From NCBI RefSeq assembly GCF_900168065.1, contig NZ_FUZZ01000002.1, forward strand, positions 806,001-870,000: 64,000 bases of DNA, written 5' to 3'. Under the pieces are notes generated by a model. That model was not told the origin of the DNA and did no database searches. It worked only from the letters and a program-made list of their open reading frames with translations. Positions 2,049 to 9,577 of the stretch are shown one piece after another. The position numbers and the translations under genes are program-made. Position 1 is the first letter of the stretch; the number at the start of each line of letters is the position of its first letter. This DNA is from Chitinophaga ginsengisegetis (lineage in GTDB: Bacteria; Bacteroidota; Bacteroidia; Chitinophagales; Chitinophagaceae).

Positions 2049-2801
2049 TCAGTCTTTCAGCTTCTTCTTCAACAGGCTTACCTGGTCCTGCAGATGGCTC
2101 ACCATATCCGCCAGGTGGTTTACACTCATCCGGCTCTGCTGTCCCGCTTTACTGATCACCGCATCCGACTGCCACAACTCCAGCACTTCTTCCATATCCA
2201 CGCCGTAAGGCTCAAACTGCGGATTATCAGACACCAGCGTAATCTTAGATTTGGAACGGTTGTTCTTCAGGATCCTTTTAAAAACAATGCCTTCCCGGGA
2301 GGTAATCACCACATAGGTTTCATTGTTCTTGATCTCATCCCATCCCTCTACCTTGTGACAAACGATCACAGAACCAGAAGTAACCGGCAGCATGGAATCT
2401 CCCGCTATTTCAAATGCCCTGTAATCACCCGCCCCCAGCATGGGTAAGGTGAACGTGTTCAGCTCTTCGATAAACTCATCATCATTATAACCGGCCAGGT
2501 AACCGGCGGCCGCTTTTACCGGCACAAACTGGATCGCCTGACGGGAACTGCCCAGCTTAAGCTGCCGGCGCTTCTCCAGGAAATTATCTTTCTGGGAGCC
2601 AAGATCACGGCGAAGCAGATCATCGATGGATACCCGGAACATATCGCTTACCTGTTCCAGGATCTCCGTACGGGGCTCTGCACGCTCCTCCTCATATGCA
2701 CCCAACAGCGAACGCTTGATACCGAGCTTATCGGCAAACTCTTGCTGCGTCCAGGCTTTTTGCTTACGCAGGTATTTCAAATTCTGACATACTACGGACA
2801 T
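2049..2801 (-). CDS. LexA-like XRE-family repressor with S24 autoprotease domain
   Basis: A 250-aa transcriptional regulator. Residues 5-62 form an XRE helix-turn-helix (WTQQEFADKLGIKRSLLGAYE); residues about 93-215 form a LexA/UmuD-type S24 domain. The self-cleavage signature is complete: Ala99-Gly100 in VKAAAGY, nucleophile Ser136 in GDSMLP and general base Lys175 in VFKRIL. Spacing is close to E. coli LexA (AG to Ser about 35, Ser to Lys about 37). A short coiled coil (225-250) ends the protein. DNA damage would be expected to trigger RecA-stimulated cleavage and derepression. Its promoter overlaps two copies of an inverted-repeat operator also found upstream of dinB-dnaE, so it is the likely SOS-type regulator of that cassette (inference). 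Confidence 0.9.
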   Translation of the reverse strand: MSVVCQNLKYLRKQKAWTQQEFADKLGIKRSLLGAYEEERAEPRTEILEQVSDMFRVSIDDLLRRDLGSQKDNFLEKRRQLKLGSSRQAIQFVPVKAAAGYLAGYNDDEFIEELNTFTLPMLGAGDYRAFEIAGDSMLPVTSGSVIVCHKVEGWDEIKNNETYVVITSREGIVFKRILKNNRSKSKITLVSDNPQFEPYGVDMEEVLELWQSDAVISKAGQQSRMSVNHLADMVSHLQDQVSLLKKKLKD

Positions 2802-2840
2802 AACCTAAATAATTTAGTACCTTGCTAACAAAATTAGCAA
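2802..2840. promoter_or_regulatory. paired operator (CTAA-N5-TTAG) at the XRE-S24 promoter
   Basis: Two 19-bp sites sit head to tail at 2802-2820 (AACCTAA-N5-TTAGTAC) and 2822-2840 (TTGCTAA-N5-TTAGCAA; perfect 7-bp arms). The minus-strand -7 box TAATTTTG (2836-2829) lies inside the second site, with a TTGG 20 bp upstream at 2860-2857. Binding would block the regulator's own promoter. The same site type occurs twice upstream of dinB. Confidence 0.75.
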
Positions 2841-2860
2841 ATATTTTTATGAATTACCAA
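2829..2860 (-). promoter_or_regulatory. promoter of the XRE-S24 regulator
   Basis: TTGG (2860-2857), 20-bp spacer and TAATTTTG (2836-2829) on the minus strand match the Bacteroidota consensus. The start codon at 2801 would give a leader of roughly 20 nt. Confidence 0.7.
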
Positions 2861-2881
2861 ATATATTCGGGGCGCTTCGCT

Positions 2882-2889
2882 TATTTTTG
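2882..2889 (+). promoter_or_regulatory. -7 promoter box of the 149-aa membrane protein gene
   Basis: TATTTTTG matches TAnnTTTG and ends 21 bp before the ATG at 2911. No convincing -33 TTG was found. Confidence 0.45.
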
Positions 2890-2910
2890 CCCGGTAAAAT
2901 CCAACTCGAT

Positions 2911-3360
2911 ATGTTAATTAACTATGTACACTCGTTCTTAAGATGGGCTATATTGCTGGCAGGGCTCTGGGCGGTTATCCGCTCCCTCAAAGGCGTAACA
3001 GGCAAAACACCATTCACTGCAGCAGATAGCAAGGCCGGACTTTTCTTTATGATCTTCTGCGATCTGCAACTGGTAGTAGGATTGATTTTGTTTTTTATGA
3101 GCCCCCTTTCCCAGGCCGGCGTAGCTGATATGGGAGGCGCCATGAAAAACCCGGTTTTACGGTTCTTCACAGTAGAACACGAAGTAATGGCCATCATCGC
3201 CATCGCACTGGTACATATCGGTAAATCAAAAATAAAGAAAGCGGCTACCGATGCACAAAAACATAAACTGGGCCTGATCTTCTTTGGTCTTGCCTTCATC
3301 GTTATCCTGGCCCTCATCCCGTGGCCTTTCCGGGAAGCACTCGGAAAAGGCTGGTTCTAA
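2911..3360 (+). CDS. four-helix integral membrane protein, function unknown
   Basis: A 149-aa protein with about four hydrophobic segments (roughly 10-30, 45-68, 90-108, 125-143). Conserved-looking histidines sit near the membrane faces (YVHSFLRW at the start, VEHEVMAI and ALVHIG later), which could suit haem or metal ligation, but no family was recognised. An upstream GTG frame would add 8 residues; the ATG at 2911 is preferred because it follows the promoter box. It is divergent from the XRE-S24 repressor and convergent with the SdpI-like gene, from which a hairpin terminator separates it. Confidence 0.75.
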   Translation: MLINYVHSFLRWAILLAGLWAVIRSLKGVTGKTPFTAADSKAGLFFMIFCDLQLVVGLILFFMSPLSQAGVADMGGAMKNPVLRFFTVEHEVMAIIAIALVHIGKSKIKKAATDAQKHKLGLIFFGLAFIVILALIPWPFREALGKGWF

Positions 3361-3384
3361 ACAACCTGCCGGATTATAAAATTA

Positions 3385-3420
3385 AATGGCGCCCCTGTCA
3401 GGGACGCCATTCCTTTTTTC
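3385..3420. terminator. intrinsic terminator between convergent genes
   Basis: Stem AATGGCG / CGCCATT extended inward by CCCTG / CAGGG, followed on the plus strand by CCTTTTTT. It serves the plus-strand membrane protein gene and perhaps the convergent SdpI-like gene. Confidence 0.75.
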
Positions 3421-3443
3421 CGATGTATTGATTGACCACTGAA

Positions 3444-4115
3444 TTATCCTTTATCCTTATTATATAACCTGAAGGAATAAATATAGGGTAATGCCGCCAG
3501 CACAATCGCCACAAAAAATATGATAAATACCCCTGTGATAAGCGACAGGAAAAATCCGGCGATGATGATCACCGCACCTGCACTGATCCACAGATTGCTC
3601 GCCATCTGATGCGTTTCCCTCCAAACCTCTGCACTTTGCAGGGTCCACGGCGTTCTCACCCCCACATAATTATTAGGCTTCACCTTACGCAGGTAAGCAC
3701 CTATGCCCACAATCAGCAACCCTACGCCAATAAAAGCCCAGCGCTCCATGATAAATGGCTTCCCCTGGCTCACCAGGAAAATAATAATACAGGTAAATAC
3801 CGCCTGGTAAGAATGGATCAGGAAACGGATCCTGTAATACTCTTTATGCTCCATCTCAATAGCAGAAGGCCGCAACTGGGTTTCATCGGCCCGTGGAATA
3901 TAGCGGAACAGGAAATAGATCAGCCCGTTGGTGAAAAAGAGAAAGATCATCAGCAGCAGGAAATCATTTTTTGTCCCCATCTCAGGAGATCCCGCCGCAT
4001 TAACATTGTTAGATAAAACAGCTGGTAAGTCTTTGAAGACTACCGCCAGGTAAACCATCGGCACCAGCAGCAAAGCGAGGATAAGTAATTCCCTGGTAAA
4101 ATCCGGTTTTTTCAT
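3444..4115 (-). CDS. SdpI/DUF1648-family membrane protein
   Basis: A 223-aa multi-pass membrane protein with an N-terminal DUF1648-like part (LAVVFKDLPAVLSNNVNAAG) and a C-terminal SdpI-like part carrying the hallmark NNYVGVRTPWTLQSAEVW-RETH. About six membrane segments are predicted by eye. SdpI is the immunity/receptor protein for the SdpC killing factor in Bacillus, but most homologues are uncharacterised. No sdpC-like toxin is adjacent. Its 5' end shares a 310-bp intergenic region with dinB that holds two copies of the repressor operator, so co-regulation with the polymerase operon is possible. Confidence 0.85.
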   Translation of the reverse strand: MKKPDFTRELLILALLLVPMVYLAVVFKDLPAVLSNNVNAAGSPEMGTKNDFLLLMIFLFFTNGLIYFLFRYIPRADETQLRPSAIEMEHKEYYRIRFLIHSYQAVFTCIIIFLVSQGKPFIMERWAFIGVGLLIVGIGAYLRKVKPNNYVGVRTPWTLQSAEVWRETHQMASNLWISAGAVIIIAGFFLSLITGVFIIFFVAIVLAALPYIYSFRLYNKDKG

Positions 4116-4425
4116 GTGGAGATCAGTTTAAATGTTCACATACTCCCTTGTTTTCCTTCATTTCCATTCTCTTATCTATTACATATTGATTGCCAGATAT
4201 GTTGTACTAAAGTTACGAAAATTGAGGCGACCGGAAATTTCAATATTTTTTACTAATTTTCTTAGCATTACTAAATAAATTAGTAACTTTACTCCACATG
4301 TAAAAGTGATTCCGGCTGGCAGGCCTGCTGCTATACTATCCTCCCTCTGCCCGGTCCGCCATCCGTAATCGCTTTAACTGCCTGCCCCTGTTCCGTCCTT
4401 TGTTTATCCATAAACCATTACCAGT
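4116..4425. other. 310-bp divergent intergenic region between the SdpI-like gene and dinB
   Basis: Contains the paired CTAA-N5-TTAG operator (4250-4286), a partial -7 box TAACTTTA at 4284-4291 at its edge, a GCAGGCCTGC palindrome (4319-4328) and an untranslated stretch of about 125 bp before the dinB ATG. No further open frame of interest was seen. Confidence 0.6.
4250..4286. promoter_or_regulatory. paired operator (CTAA-N5-TTAG) upstream of dinB-dnaE
   Basis: Two sites overlap by one base: 4250-4268 (TTACTAA-N5-TTAGCAT) and 4268-4286 (TTACTAA-N5-TTAGTAA; perfect 7-bp arms). Core, spacer length and tandem arrangement match the pair at 2802-2840 upstream of the XRE-S24 repressor. A near-consensus -7 box TAACTTTA (4284-4291) overlaps the right edge. 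Confidence 0.75.
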
Positions 4426-5637
4426 ATGATCACTTTACAACAGCGAACAATAGCGCATTTCGATCTGGACTGCTTCTTTGTATCAGTGGAATGCCAGCGG
4501 GACAATCGCCTCCTCGGCAAACCAATCCTGGTGGGCGGCAGCAGTGATCGCGCTGTAGTAGCTGCCTGTAGTTATGAGGCCAGACGGTATGGTATTCATT
4601 CCGCCATGCCCATGAAAACCGCGCTGCGGCTTTGTCCCCATGCTATTGTCCGCAGCGGGGACATGGAACTGTACAGTGCCAAGTCGAGGGAAATCACGGA
4701 GCTCATCGCCGGAAAGGCGCCTCTCTACGAGAAATCATCTATCGATGAATTTTATCTCGACCTCTCCGGCATGGATAAGTTCTTTGGCTCCATGAAATGG
4801 ACCACCGAACTGCGGAAAACCATCATGAAAGAATCAGGACTACCCATTTCATTCGGACTAGCATCCAATAAACTCGTTTCAAAAGTAGCCACCGATGAAG
4901 CCAAACCTAATGGTCAGCTTGAAATCCTGTTCGGACAAGAAAAAAATTTCCTGGCGCCGCTGGCGGTAGAAAAGATTCCAATGGTAGGCCGTGAAACCGG
5001 CGCCCTGCTGAGGCGCCGCGGCGTAGAAACCGTAAAAACACTGAGCGAAGTGCCCATCTCCCTGCTGGAAGCATGGATGGGAAAAAACGGAATAGCCCTC
5101 TGGAGAAAAGCCAATGGAATCGATGAATCGCCGGTGGTGCCTTTTTATGAACAGAAATCTATCTCTACGGAAAGTACATTCCCCGCAGATACCATCGACA
5201 TGCAATTCCTTCACGCCGAACTGGTACGCATGACGGAGAAAATCGCATTCGAACTGCGACAGCAAAATAAATTAACCGGTTGCATCACCCTCAAAATCCG
5301 GTACTCGGATTTTGAAACCGTTACCAAACAAATGTCTATTCCTTACTCCTGTGCAGATCATGTGCTGCTGGAAAAAGTAAAAGACCTCTTCAAAAAACTG
5401 TACGACCGCCGGCTGCTGGTTCGCCTCATAGGCGTGCGTTTCAGTCACCTCGTACATGGCAACTACCAGATCAGCCTGTTCGACGACAAACAGGAAATGA
5501 TTGCCCTCTACCAGGCCATCGATCAAATCAAAAACCGCTTCGGATGGGAATATCTCATGAAAGGTACCAACGTAATACCACCCGGAAAAAAAGACCAGCA
5601 CACACCGAAAAAAGATATCATGCCATACTTTAAATAA
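4426..5637 (+). CDS. dinB: Y-family DNA polymerase (DinB/Pol IV type)
   Basis: Translesion polymerase of 403 aa. The palm carboxylates are all present: Asp13 in AHFDLDCFF and Asp107-Glu108 in SSIDEFYLDLSG, so it should be catalytically active, unlike ImuB proteins. The fingers motif AACSYEARRYGIHSAMP and the little-finger domain follow. A beta-clamp motif QISLF is visible at 348-352. It is followed after only 5 bp by dnaE, so the two are one operon. Upstream lies a double operator shared with the XRE-S24 repressor, suggesting damage-inducible expression (inference). No imuA-like gene is nearby. Confidence 0.93.
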   Translation: MITLQQRTIAHFDLDCFFVSVECQRDNRLLGKPILVGGSSDRAVVAACSYEARRYGIHSAMPMKTALRLCPHAIVRSGDMELYSAKSREITELIAGKAPLYEKSSIDEFYLDLSGMDKFFGSMKWTTELRKTIMKESGLPISFGLASNKLVSKVATDEAKPNGQLEILFGQEKNFLAPLAVEKIPMVGRETGALLRRRGVETVKTLSEVPISLLEAWMGKNGIALWRKANGIDESPVVPFYEQKSISTESTFPADTIDMQFLHAELVRMTEKIAFELRQQNKLTGCITLKIRYSDFETVTKQMSIPYSCADHVLLEKVKDLFKKLYDRRLLVRLIGVRFSHLVHGNYQISLFDDKQEMIALYQAIDQIKNRFGWEYLMKGTNVIPPGKKDQHTPKKDIMPYFK

Positions 5638-5642
5638 ACATC

Positions 5643-8600
5643 ATGTTCCTCAACTGCAAAACATTTTTTAGTCTACGCTATGGCACCATGCACGCGGAAA
5701 TGCTGGTGCAGAAAGCACATGAACTCGGTATCGGATCACTGGCACTTACCAATATCAACATCACTTCCGATGCGTGGGAGTTCGTGGCCCTCTGCCGTAA
5801 ACATGATATTAAACCTATACTCGGACTGGAATGCAGAAACGGAAATGATTTTAAATATCTCCTGCTGGCCCGCAACCAGGAAGGCTGGCATCATATCAAT
5901 GTTTTCTTATCCACCCACCTTCAACAGGAAAAACCTTTCCCCGATCAGGCGCCCGTTATCCCGCATACCTGGGTGATCTATGCGCTGGGAACCCGCGCTC
6001 CTGAATCATTAGCGCCTCATGAACTCATTGGTGTAAAACCCTGGCAACGCAATAAATTATTCAGAACAGCTAACACCACACTCCGCGATAAATTGGTGAT
6101 CCTCCAGCCAGTTACCTTCCAGGACAATACCCATTATGAATTACATCAACTGCTGCGTGCCATTGATCAGAATATCCTGATCACACAGCTGGAACCGGCT
6201 ATGACAGGCCATCCGCAGGAACAATTTGTTACGCCCGCTTCACTCGTGGAACACTTCGCCGATTATCCGGACATCGTACAGCGAACCGTGGAAGTGATGG
6301 AAGACTGCCACGTTGAAATGGATATTCATCATTCCATCTCCCGAAATAAAAAATGTTTCCTCGGCAGCGTGGAAGAAGATCGCGCGAAGCTACGGGCGCT
6401 TGCCCTGGAAGGCATGTTATACCGCTATGGCGATGATCATGAAGAAGCCCTTCAACGGATTGAAAAAGAACTGGCCATTGTAGCACAACTAAACTTCGAA
6501 TCTTATTTTCTCATTACCTGGGATATTATCCGCTATGCGCAGGAACGCGAATTCTTTTATGTGGGCCGCGGAAGCGGCGCTAACTCCATTATCGCCTACT
6601 GTATAAAAATTACAGATGTAGATCCGATAGAACTGGATTTATATTTTGAAAGATTTCTGAACCCTTACCGTACTTCGCCACCGGATTTTGATATTGATTT
6701 TTCCTGGCGCGACCGGGACGAAATTATCCGGTACGTTTTTAATAAGTATGGCCCGCAACACACGGCCCTGCTGGGCACCGTAACTACTTTTCAAACCAAC
6801 GCCGTTATCCGCGAGCTGGGAAAAGTATATGGTCTTCCTAAAAAAGAAATCGATAAAATCCTGGAAAATGGCTTCCACGTTAATTTGGAAGCCGATAGCA
6901 TCCATCAGAAAATAGCGTACTTCAGTAACCTGATGGATACGGAAAAAGCATTTCCCAATCACCTCAGTATTCACGCCGGCGGTATCCTCATCAGTGATGC
7001 GCCTATTCACCAGTTCTGCACTACTTACCTGCCGCCCAAAGGCTTTGTAACCGCGCAGCTGGATATGTGGCAGGCGGAAAGAATTGGGCTGTATAAATTC
7101 GATATCCTCAGCCAGCGCGGCCTCGGACATATCCGGGATGCCATTGATATCATCAAAAAAAACCAGGACGTTGATATAGATATCCATGATGTAAAAGCTT
7201 TCCAGGTAGATCCGCTGGTGCGTAAAAATCTGTCCGGTGTAAATACTATCGGGTGTTTTTATATAGAATCGCCCGCTATGCGGCAACTGCTGCTGAAACT
7301 GGGATGCGATGATTATCTCACCCTGGTGGCAGCAAGTTCTATTATCCGCCCCGGCGTAGCGCAATCGGGCATGATGAAACAATATATACATCGCTACCGG
7401 CACCCCGATGAAGTAGTTTATCTCCATCCGATTATCGAGGAATTGCTGAAAGATACCTTCGGGATTATGGTATACCAGGAAGATGTCATTAAAGTAGCAC
7501 ACAAATATGCAGACATGGAGCTGGCGGATGCCGATAGCCTGCGAAGGGCGATGGCAGGGAAATACCGCGGATCCAATGACTTCAGGGATATACAAAAACG
7601 TTTCTTTGATAACTGCGAACGCCTGAAACGGCCACCGGAAGTATCTGCGGAAGTGTGGCGGCAAATTGCCAGCTTTGCTAACTTCTCCTTTTCCAAAGCC
7701 CACTCCGCCAGTTTTGCGGTGGAAAGCTACCAAAGCCTGTACCTCAAAACCTATTTCCCTGCAGAGTTCATGGTGGCTGTTATCAACAATTTCGGCGGCT
7801 TTTATAACCGGGAACTCTATTTCCGGGAATTGCAGAAAACCGGCGTAACACTGCACCCGCCTTGTATCAATCATAGCGATTATGCCACCAATATCACCGG
7901 CCGGGAAGTATACACAGGGCTGATCCACATAGAAGGACTGGAACAATTGCTGGCGGAAAGAATATTAAAAGACCGTGAACAGTATGGCCCGTTTTTACAT
8001 CTCGAAGATTTTACCAGCCGGATTTCACCGGGTCCGGAACAGCTGGAAATACTAATCCGCATTGGCTGTTTCAACTTTACCGGCTACACCAAAAAAGAAT
8101 TATTGTGGAAAAGCAGTTTACTGGTAAGTAAGAAAGAAGTCAATCCACACAGCATTTCCTTGTTTGGCAATACCACCACTGTTAACTGTGAACTGCCCAC
8201 CCTGGCTTATCACGCGCATGAAGATGCCTTTGATGAGATAGATCTGCTGGGCTTTCCGCTGCAATCACCCTTTAAAGTATTGCAGCACGATCAAAGTGCG
8301 TATATGCCTTCCAGTGAGTTCAGCAAAAATATTGGCCAGCCTGTTACCACGCTTGGCTACCTGGTAACCAACAAATTCCTGCGCAGCAGCAAAGGGGAAC
8401 CCATGTGCTTTGGTACATTCCTCGACCGCGACGGCGCATTTATGGATACCATCCATTTTCCTGATAGCCTGCGGCTGTACCCTTTTCAAAAGGGCGGCTT
8501 TTATGTGCTGCAGGGCAGGGTGGCAGAAGAGTACGGCGTAATACAACTGGAAATCAATAAGATGTGGAAGATTGGTTATTTTGAAGATAAAAAGCCTTAA
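5643..8600 (+). CDS. dnaE: second, DnaE2-like DNA polymerase III alpha subunit
   Basis: A C-family polymerase of 985 aa, shorter than the usual replicative DnaE (about 1150-1200 aa). The N-terminal PHP domain (1-~230) begins NCKTFFSLRYGTMHAEML, where the HxH-type metal ligands of active PHP domains are replaced, so proofreading is unlikely. The catalytic core is intact: YVGRGSGANSIIAYC (about 306-320) and PDFDIDF (347-353). A helix-hairpin-helix region and an OB fold (about 880-980) follow. It is translationally close to dinB and should function as an error-prone partner in induced mutagenesis, as DnaE2 does with ImuB elsewhere (established for those systems, inferred here). Confidence 0.92.
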   Translation: MFLNCKTFFSLRYGTMHAEMLVQKAHELGIGSLALTNINITSDAWEFVALCRKHDIKPILGLECRNGNDFKYLLLARNQEGWHHINVFLSTHLQQEKPFPDQAPVIPHTWVIYALGTRAPESLAPHELIGVKPWQRNKLFRTANTTLRDKLVILQPVTFQDNTHYELHQLLRAIDQNILITQLEPAMTGHPQEQFVTPASLVEHFADYPDIVQRTVEVMEDCHVEMDIHHSISRNKKCFLGSVEEDRAKLRALALEGMLYRYGDDHEEALQRIEKELAIVAQLNFESYFLITWDIIRYAQEREFFYVGRGSGANSIIAYCIKITDVDPIELDLYFERFLNPYRTSPPDFDIDFSWRDRDEIIRYVFNKYGPQHTALLGTVTTFQTNAVIRELGKVYGLPKKEIDKILENGFHVNLEADSIHQKIAYFSNLMDTEKAFPNHLSIHAGGILISDAPIHQFCTTYLPPKGFVTAQLDMWQAERIGLYKFDILSQRGLGHIRDAIDIIKKNQDVDIDIHDVKAFQVDPLVRKNLSGVNTIGCFYIESPAMRQLLLKLGCDDYLTLVAASSIIRPGVAQSGMMKQYIHRYRHPDEVVYLHPIIEELLKDTFGIMVYQEDVIKVAHKYADMELADADSLRRAMAGKYRGSNDFRDIQKRFFDNCERLKRPPEVSAEVWRQIASFANFSFSKAHSASFAVESYQSLYLKTYFPAEFMVAVINNFGGFYNRELYFRELQKTGVTLHPPCINHSDYATNITGREVYTGLIHIEGLEQLLAERILKDREQYGPFLHLEDFTSRISPGPEQLEILIRIGCFNFTGYTKKELLWKSSLLVSKKEVNPHSISLFGNTTTVNCELPTLAYHAHEDAFDEIDLLGFPLQSPFKVLQHDQSAYMPSSEFSKNIGQPVTTLGYLVTNKFLRSSKGEPMCFGTFLDRDGAFMDTIHFPDSLRLYPFQKGGFYVLQGRVAEEYGVIQLEINKMWKIGYFEDKKP

Positions 8601-8602
8601 TT

Positions 8603-8637
8603 CCGACAATTTGTTGTATTTTTGTGACAAATGTCGG
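8603..8637. promoter_or_regulatory. promoter and inverted-repeat operator of the toxin-antitoxin operon
   Basis: An imperfect inverted repeat (CCGACAATTTGT at 8603-8614; ACAAATGTCGG at 8627-8637, one extra base in the left arm) flanks a perfect -7 box TATTTTTG (8617-8624). A smaller palindrome TTTGTGACAAA sits at 8621-8631. The layout is typical of antitoxin autoregulation. Confidence 0.6.
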
Positions 8638-8641
8638 GTAT

Positions 8642-9100
8642 ATGAAACACGTAAAAGGATACCGCGTGCAGGAAAATGCATTATTGATAGTAGAGCAGCC
8701 AGGAGGAGGAGCGGCATATATTGCCGGTAGTGGCTACTTTGATTTTATACAGCTTTCCCGCAGTGGAATTATTAAAAGAGCTTTATTGAATCTGAGCAGG
8801 CAGCTGTCTTTTTCTTTATCAGAGCTGGCGCAGGTAGTACATGTGTCAGAAAGAACGCTGCAACGCTATGCAGACGACGAGAAATTGTCTGCCGACACGT
8901 CTGAACGTGCTATTTTACTTTCCCAGCTTTACCAGCGCGGTACCGAAGTATTTGGCCAGCTGGAAAACTTCAAGGAATGGATGAGAACTCCGTTACCTGC
9001 CTTCAACTATCAAACCCCTATTTCGCTTTTAGATACCACCTTTGGGTTTCAGCTTATCCAGGATGAGCTGGGGCGCATTGAGCATGGCATCTTTGCATAA
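8642..9100 (+). CDS. antitoxin of the Xre/MbcA/ParS (DUF2384) family
   Basis: A 152-aa antitoxin. The N-terminal half carries an Xre-like helix-turn-helix (SLSELAQVVHVSERTLQRYA) and the C-terminal half the toxin-binding domain (SQLYQRGTEVFGQLENFKEW, then TPISLLDTTFGFQLIQDELG). A GTG 18 bp upstream is in frame, but it coincides with the end of the -7 box, so the ATG at 8642 is preferred. The gene precedes a RES-domain toxin by 18 bp. In this family the antitoxin neutralises the toxin and usually represses the operon; the inverted repeat over the promoter fits that. Confidence 0.9.
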   Translation: MKHVKGYRVQENALLIVEQPGGGAAYIAGSGYFDFIQLSRSGIIKRALLNLSRQLSFSLSELAQVVHVSERTLQRYADDEKLSADTSERAILLSQLYQRGTEVFGQLENFKEWMRTPLPAFNYQTPISLLDTTFGFQLIQDELGRIEHGIFA

Positions 9101-9118
9101 ATCTACGAAACCATCAAC

Positions 9119-9577
9119 ATGGAAGTATACAGGATCAGTAAGTGCGCTTACATCAATGATCTGAGTGGAACAGGTGCGCGCCTGTATGGAGGCCGCTGGA
9201 ACAGCCCGGGGCATGCTATTGTGTACACTGCCGGCAGCAGGGCGTTATCGGCGCTGGAAGTACTGGTGCACATTCCACTGAAAAATATAGTACAGGATTT
9301 CTGCATCGCTACCCTGCAGATCCCCGATAACATTGCCATTAAAGTACTCACCAAACATGATCTGCCCTCCGGCTGGCAATCACTGGCGCCTTCACCGGAG
9401 CTGCAATGTATCGGAGATGAATGGATAGACACCGCTAAATACGCCGTACTCCGGATTCCATCCGTGGTAATTGCAGATGAATATAACTACCTGATCAACC
9501 CGCTGCATCCCGATGCAGTAAATATTACCATCCTGAATACGCAACCCTTCGTTTTTGATCAGCGGTTGAAAAAATAA
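9119..9577 (+). CDS. RES-domain toxin (NAD+-depleting)
   Basis: A 152-aa RES-family toxin. Family features are visible: Arg5, the GARLYGGRWNSPG motif with Arg26, Tyr36 and Glu47 in ALEVLVH, and the terminal VVIADEYNYLINPLHPDA block. Characterised RES toxins (MbcT, Res) degrade NAD+ and stop growth. The length equals the family norm and no active-site residue appears lost. It forms a canonical two-gene operon with the upstream antitoxin and abuts the lysC terminator on the other strand. Confidence 0.92.
   Translation: MEVYRISKCAYINDLSGTGARLYGGRWNSPGHAIVYTAGSRALSALEVLVHIPLKNIVQDFCIATLQIPDNIAIKVLTKHDLPSGWQSLAPSPELQCIGDEWIDTAKYAVLRIPSVVIADEYNYLINPLHPDAVNITILNTQPFVFDQRLKK

Follow-up and report, generated by a model that had tools for sequence, protein, structure and literature searches.

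We examined a window of 64,000 nucleotides from Chitinophaga ginsengisegetis. On the minus strand it encodes a repressor that combines an XRE/CI-type helix-turn-helix (HTH) with an S24 peptidase domain. Nearby, on the opposite strand, is a dinB-dnaE operon (Table 1). The two genes of the operon, encoding Y-family and C-family polymerases respectively, are separated by 5 bp. The genome has three DNA_pol3_alpha matches, and this dnaE is one of them. Between the repressor and dinB are a small gene, with no Pfam match at an E-value of 0.001, and an SdpI-family gene. A RES/Xre toxin-antitoxin pair lies directly behind dnaE (window positions 8,624–9,577) and has its own promoter-like sequence, TATTTTTG. 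Of 10 relatives inspected, 4 have the pair at this place.

The motif CTAA-N5-TTAG has four exact matches in the window, compared to 0.93 expected. Four or more exact cores were present in 1 of 100 shuffles. All four matches are outside the ORFs listed for the window and they form two tandem pairs, one in the repressor promoter and one upstream of dinB-dnaE. An earlier note on this DNA described them as four 19-bp frames in two tandem pairs. This is right; exact cores start at 2,805, 2,825, 4,253 and 4,271. The perfect 7-bp arms claimed for two sites hold at 2,822–2,840 and 4,268–4,286. The CTAA/TTAG core is the only generally conserved portion. In the 19-mer, the outer arms are variable and fall in part on the TA of the promoter. 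Allowing up to three mismatches, TTRCTAA-N5-TTAGYAA was found 12 times in the window, with no excess over the 11.65 expected. The varying arms agree with published EMSAs, in which altering either dyad or the spacer length abolishes binding but altering bases beside the dyad does not (PMC8565304).

The repressor promoter contains a TAnnTTTG box, similar to a -7 element, and a candidate -33 TTTG located 21 bp upstream. We take both to match the Bacteroidetes promoter consensus. As the earlier note stated, the -7 box is inside one site; read on the minus strand from 2,836 to 2,829, it falls in the core at 2,825–2,837. The same arrangement, with TAnnTTTG in the distal repressor core, occurs in 35 of 35 Chitinophaga genomes examined. 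At dinB, a -7-like box adjoins the proximal operator, and the proximal dinB operators of relatives have TTAGTAnnTTTG or a near form (TTAG, TTTA). In dinB loci L070–L074 and L085–L099, TAnnTTTG or a near form begins at the very end of this operator (TTAG-TAnnTTTG). Hence, the promoter accounts in part for the sequence of the outer operator arms. The composite CTAA-N5-TTAG-TAnnTTTG was found 86 times in 36 same-genus genomes, against 9 for the control, and 7 times against 3 in 23 other genomes. In the genome studied here it identifies 3 sites only and catches none of the six tandem pairs described below.

Table 1. Features of the repressor and dinB-dnaE locus, in window coordinates
Feature	Position	Strand	Details
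Repressor, very probably a non-canonical LexA (XRE/CI-type HTH, S24 peptidase, C-terminal heptad helix)	2049..2801	-	250 aa; Pfam HTH_3, Peptidase_S24
Operator core proximal to repressor start codon	2805..2817		CTAAATAATTTAG, exact match
Operator core distal from repressor start codon	2825..2837		CTAACAAAATTAG, exact match, 20 bp from proximal
-7-like box (TAnnTTTG), repressor promoter	2829..2836	-	TAATTTTG, read 2836 down to 2829, inside distal core
Candidate -33 (TTTG), repressor promoter	2858-2861	-	21 bp upstream of -7-like box
Small gene between repressor and dinB	2905..3360	+	No Pfam match at E 0.001
SdpI-family gene between repressor and dinB	3444..4115	-	Pfam SdpI
Distal dinB operator core	4253..4265		CTAATTTTCTTAG, exact match
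Proximal dinB operator core	4271..4283		CTAAATAAATTAG, exact match, 18 bp from distal
-7-like box adjoining proximal dinB operator	4284..4291	+	TAACTTTA, from sequence
dinB (Y-family polymerase IV)	4426..5637	+	IMS, IMS_C, IMS_HHH_1
dnaE-type C-family polymerase, second gene of operon	5643..8600	+	985 aa; PHP, DNA_pol3_alpha, finger

Operator cores across the genome and among relatives

We searched the whole genome (7.93 Mb) for exact CTAA-N5-TTAG. This identified 48 cores, of which 12 form six tandem pairs. Two are the pairs at the repressor gene and dinB-dnaE. The others are at imuA-imuB-dnaE2, a TPR gene followed by recN, umuD followed by an SRAP gene, and a PA0069-type radical-SAM gene. 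At the imuA locus, dnaE2 scores above the cut-off of its model and the ImuA match falls below its own. Resemblance to the SplB group (PMC8565304) suggests an SOS role for the radical-SAM gene. Further exact cores were found at recA, uvrA and the gene for a GyrB/ParE-type subunit. The single recA core has its nearest one-mismatch partner 29 bp away, and umuDC has two exact cores separated by 98 bp. The earlier note had suggested a genome-wide search with its longer motif; with the core, exact matches do fall at recA, uvrA and other SOS genes.

Sites are present at three of four Y-family loci. The second dinB (L170:1459-2574) has no site, at up to one mismatch, in the stretch fetched, and is perhaps constitutive. 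No SOS gene was assigned to 31 of the 48 cores; these are located either at different genes or within ORFs, and families were searched for in only some of the neighbours. Exact cores also occur upstream of genes encoding TerD, a small protein with a weak M1 peptidase match, a C5 DNA methylase, a WbqC-like protein and a 2'-5' RNA ligase (L002, L003/L186, L015, L023 and L024). Possibly, these are further SOS targets or chance occurrences.

ORFs of at least 150 amino acids contain 16 of the 48 cores. One of these, the second umuDC site (L022), is probably upstream of the true start, leaving at least 15 in likely coding sequence. Hence, a bare core is no proof of an operator. Genome-wide, the core is rarer than its reversed control (48 compared to 128). 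With one mismatch allowed, RCTAA-N5-TTAGY gave 456 matches against 958 for the control and is useless for finding the regulon. The earlier note would have given up its reading were the motif common at random positions. That applies in part to the bare core, given the ORF-internal matches and the control count. The case rests on the pairing and the conservation, not on the bare core.

All 35 Chitinophaga genomes inspected (G005 was left out) have an exact pair in front of the regulator. The spacing is 20 bp in 24 genomes, 21 bp in 2, 22 bp in 1 and 23 bp in 8. At dinB, an exact pair with a spacing of 18 or 19 bp was found in 17 of 18 distinct loci of relatives, and the eighteenth has a single core. 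Of 20 dinB loci put in, 19 gave a result and one of these was a duplicate; for C. costaii (L097), dinB was not found in the flanks. The sites, whose absence here the earlier note named as counting against it, are kept at the orthologous regulator and dinB.

More widely, we inspected the best 80 of at least 568 named relatives of the regulator. At least one exact core lies within 250 bp upstream in 76, and two exact cores 20–24 bp apart are present in 50. The remaining four have one- or two-mismatch cores and no exact core; one of these was covered for 152 bp upstream only. For the 76 relatives with an exact core (limit 70 bp), the best partner, with at most two mismatches, is at 20–24 bp in 73. 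Starting from the core nearest the start codon, a partner of this kind at 20–24 bp was found at 74 of 76 loci, whereas shuffled flanks gave 7.2 on average and never more than 16.

Counting tandem pairs with a gap of 0 to 30, we obtained 160 from 36 same-genus genomes and 6 with the reversed control. The corresponding counts from 23 further genomes of the order were 8 and 3. Hence, an excess is evident in the genus and also, where the regulator gene is concerned, in the family, but not in the order. Among pairs listed for 16 same-genus genomes, 67 of 69 have a centre distance of 18–23 bp; the exceptions are 29 and 41 bp. Since orthologous loci share ancestry, these represent about six independent loci in the genus, together with the regulators of other genera (mostly 22–24 bp), and not 67 events. 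Across Chitinophaga the spacing is 18–19 bp at dinB and 20–23 bp at the repressor. In the genome studied here it is 21 bp at the radical-SAM gene and imuA, and 23 bp at recN and umuD. Pairs are nearly confined to 18–24 bp, centre to centre.

Identity of the repressor and competing explanations

Pfam identifies HTH_3 (PF01381) and Peptidase_S24 (PF00717) in the repressor. The winged HTH of LexA (PF01726) was not found by Pfam at an E-value of 0.001; HTH_3 and related XRE families were found instead. The Ala-Gly cleavage site and Ser/Lys dyad that the earlier note recognised are retained; A99-G100, S136 and K175 do not vary among 41 aligned sequences, including that from the window. The nearest named relatives are from Chitinophaga species, with 97% identity to C. 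hostae and C. niastensis. An AlphaFold2 model (pTM 0.51) places a terminal helix after the S24 domain, at residues 227–249. The pLDDT is 51 for residues 221–230, 71 for 231–240 and 65 for 241–250. Foldseek matched the model to lambda-type repressors and LexA, and its HTH to ImmR. Whole-model TM was low because, as the pTM indicates, the domain arrangement is uncertain.

Canonical LexA of E. coli has the S24 domain, SOS logic and autoregulation in common with this system, and tandem boxes also occur there. It differs in having a winged HTH and the operator CTGT-N8-ACAG. Phage lambda CI is similar in HTH fold type, S24 domain and closely spaced tandem operators, which in lambda are about 20–24 bp apart. 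Conversely, the regulon here is a chromosomal SOS regulon and the operator is different. CI structures do not have the C-terminal helix (PMC8565304).

A closer counterpart is the non-canonical LexA of Bacteroidetes, described in 2021 as having a CI-type HTH, an S24 domain and the operator CTAA-N5-TTAG; a sister group recognises GGA-N5-TCC (PMC8565304). For Pontibacter actiniarum, an example of the CTAA group, operator binding was detected by EMSA and mitomycin C caused induction (PMC8565304). Chitinophagaceae are named as having large regulons, and several promoters have two or more motif instances (PMC8565304). These features of the group are found here: PF01381 with PF00717, Ala-Gly with Ser/Lys, CTAA-N5-TTAG both in the repressor's own promoter and at central SOS genes, among them recA and those for error-prone polymerases, and an extra α-helix after S24. 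The likeness to the published group covers operator, autoregulation, CI-type HTH and S24 domains, cleavage residues and extra terminal helix. It extends to the regulon, with recA, recN, dinB, umuDC, imuA-imuB-dnaE2, the SOS-associated peptidase, topoisomerase IV and splB. Nothing essential differs from the account in that paper's main text (PMC8565304).

The earlier note had predicted a self-regulated SOS-like circuit whose operator code would be unlike the known LexA boxes. The circuit is well supported, by the same operator at the classical SOS set including recA and by conservation at the regulator and dinB. The novelty of the operator is wrong, and we rejected it, since CTAA-N5-TTAG is the published and tested Bacteroidetes LexA box (PMC8565304). 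With sites, conservation, regulon membership and intact catalytic residues all observed, we conclude, with high confidence, that the locus is the SOS master circuit of Chitinophaga and that the repressor is a Bacteroidetes non-canonical LexA.

Three other explanations bear on the same data. The CI-like HTH, the weak phage relatives (identities of 23.5–39.8% among the 15 of 40 matches listed) and the proximity of regulator and dinB in Chitinophaga could indicate a phage-derived or stand-alone XRE-S24 switch, controlling only itself and the neighbouring dinB-dnaE. Among the same 15 listed matches there was no clear phage donor. A purely local switch is contradicted by the genome-wide regulon, which includes paired operators at four unlinked loci (recN, imuA, umuD and the radical-SAM gene) as well as the recA core. 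In addition, the regulator and operator are kept at the 71 of 80 loci with no dinB detected in the flanks that were fetched. We rejected this explanation, which is extremely unlikely. The nine loci with dinB in the flanks of the regulator are all from Chitinophaga. Hence, the repressor-dinB neighbourhood is mostly a feature of the genus; dinB is also beside the repressor in two more distant genomes (L076 and L078).

It is very unlikely that the sites bind some other regulator. A candidate exists, in the form of a second HTH-S24 protein with 37% identity to the repressor (G000 C9:307840), but its own promoter has a different AT-rich repeat and no exact core. Furthermore, the published CTAA binder, of the same HTH and S24 type, binds its own promoter (PMC8565304). 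That the sites are chance palindromes in AT-rich intergenic DNA has a vanishingly small probability. In its favour, the 7.9 Mb contain 48 cores, and no fewer than 15 of these are in likely coding sequence. The paired arrangement (160 against 6 for the control), the conserved positions at the regulator and dinB of relatives, and the 20–24 bp partners at 74 of 76 regulators, far above the shuffled flanks, all oppose chance. We rejected it as refuted by conservation.

The HTH-S24 paralog (L039:1474-2220; orthologs L188–L199) has Ala-Gly, Ser and Lys in place, and CTAA-N5-TTAG is absent from its promoter. Close orthologs have the AT-rich repeat TTATAAATATA twice, 16 bp apart and with small changes. 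In another subset of orthologs, CTTACTAA is found twice, also with changes. Perhaps the paralog is a repressor that has diverged and uses an operator of its own.

Returning to the non-canonical LexA, we infer each functional step in this organism as follows. The repressor would bind CTAA-N5-TTAG, overlapping or abutting the -7 box at its own promoter and that of dinB-dnaE, and so block RNA polymerase. The same operator would be bound at recN, imuA-imuB-dnaE2, umuD, recA and other genes. Upon DNA damage, RecA filaments would stimulate the Ser136/Lys175 dyad to cleave the repressor between Ala99 and Gly100. The regulon would then be turned on. Cleavage is deduced in the 2021 paper too, with no non-cleavable mutant in its main text (PMC8565304).

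Operator pairs and the terminal helix

In the terminal helix, all 80 close relatives show a heptad pattern. Briefly, six hydrophobic positions, mostly V-L-V-L-V-L, recur at a spacing of 3–4 residues. Two in-between positions (alanine; M/L/I/V) are also hydrophobic. The helix has been reported with function unknown, dimer stabilisation being a guess (PMC8565304). The pair spacing of about two helical turns, together with the conserved heptad helix, suggests cooperative binding, with the helix as a candidate contact. Hence, a tentative interpretation is that the repressor acts by CI-like cooperativity. Two dimers would occupy tandem operators held within 18–24 bp, and the valine/leucine heptad helix would form a dimer-dimer, or dimer-stabilising, coil. 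Gene-specific spacing would help to set the sharpness and lateness of induction. We regard this as possible, though doubtful.

Several points count against cooperativity. The recA gene has one exact core and the umuDC cores are 98 bp apart. Tandem LexA boxes occur elsewhere without such a helix. The strict heptad pattern is present in only 4 of 10 more distant relatives. Furthermore, binding to a recA promoter was lost when one motif was changed (PMC8565304). The 10 more distant relatives have one exact core upstream (6 of 10) or none (4 of 10), and no association between heptad helix and tandem sites was demonstrable among them. In the distant relative L081, two cores are 18 bp apart and the second overlaps the assumed start codon.

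Term searches of the main text of the 2021 paper did not find pair spacing, promoter-box geometry or the helix heptad (PMC8565304). Cooperativity of this repressor was likewise not found there, and literature searches found neither it nor the pair spacing. The tightly spaced operator pairs may, then, be new.

For Chitinophaga, our analysis bears out the SOS circuit published for Bacteroidetes and adds a dense comparative record. Should the repressor bind cooperatively, this would provide a function for its terminal helix. It would also provide a simple rule, a second core within 18–24 bp at the -7 box, to sort true operators from chance cores.
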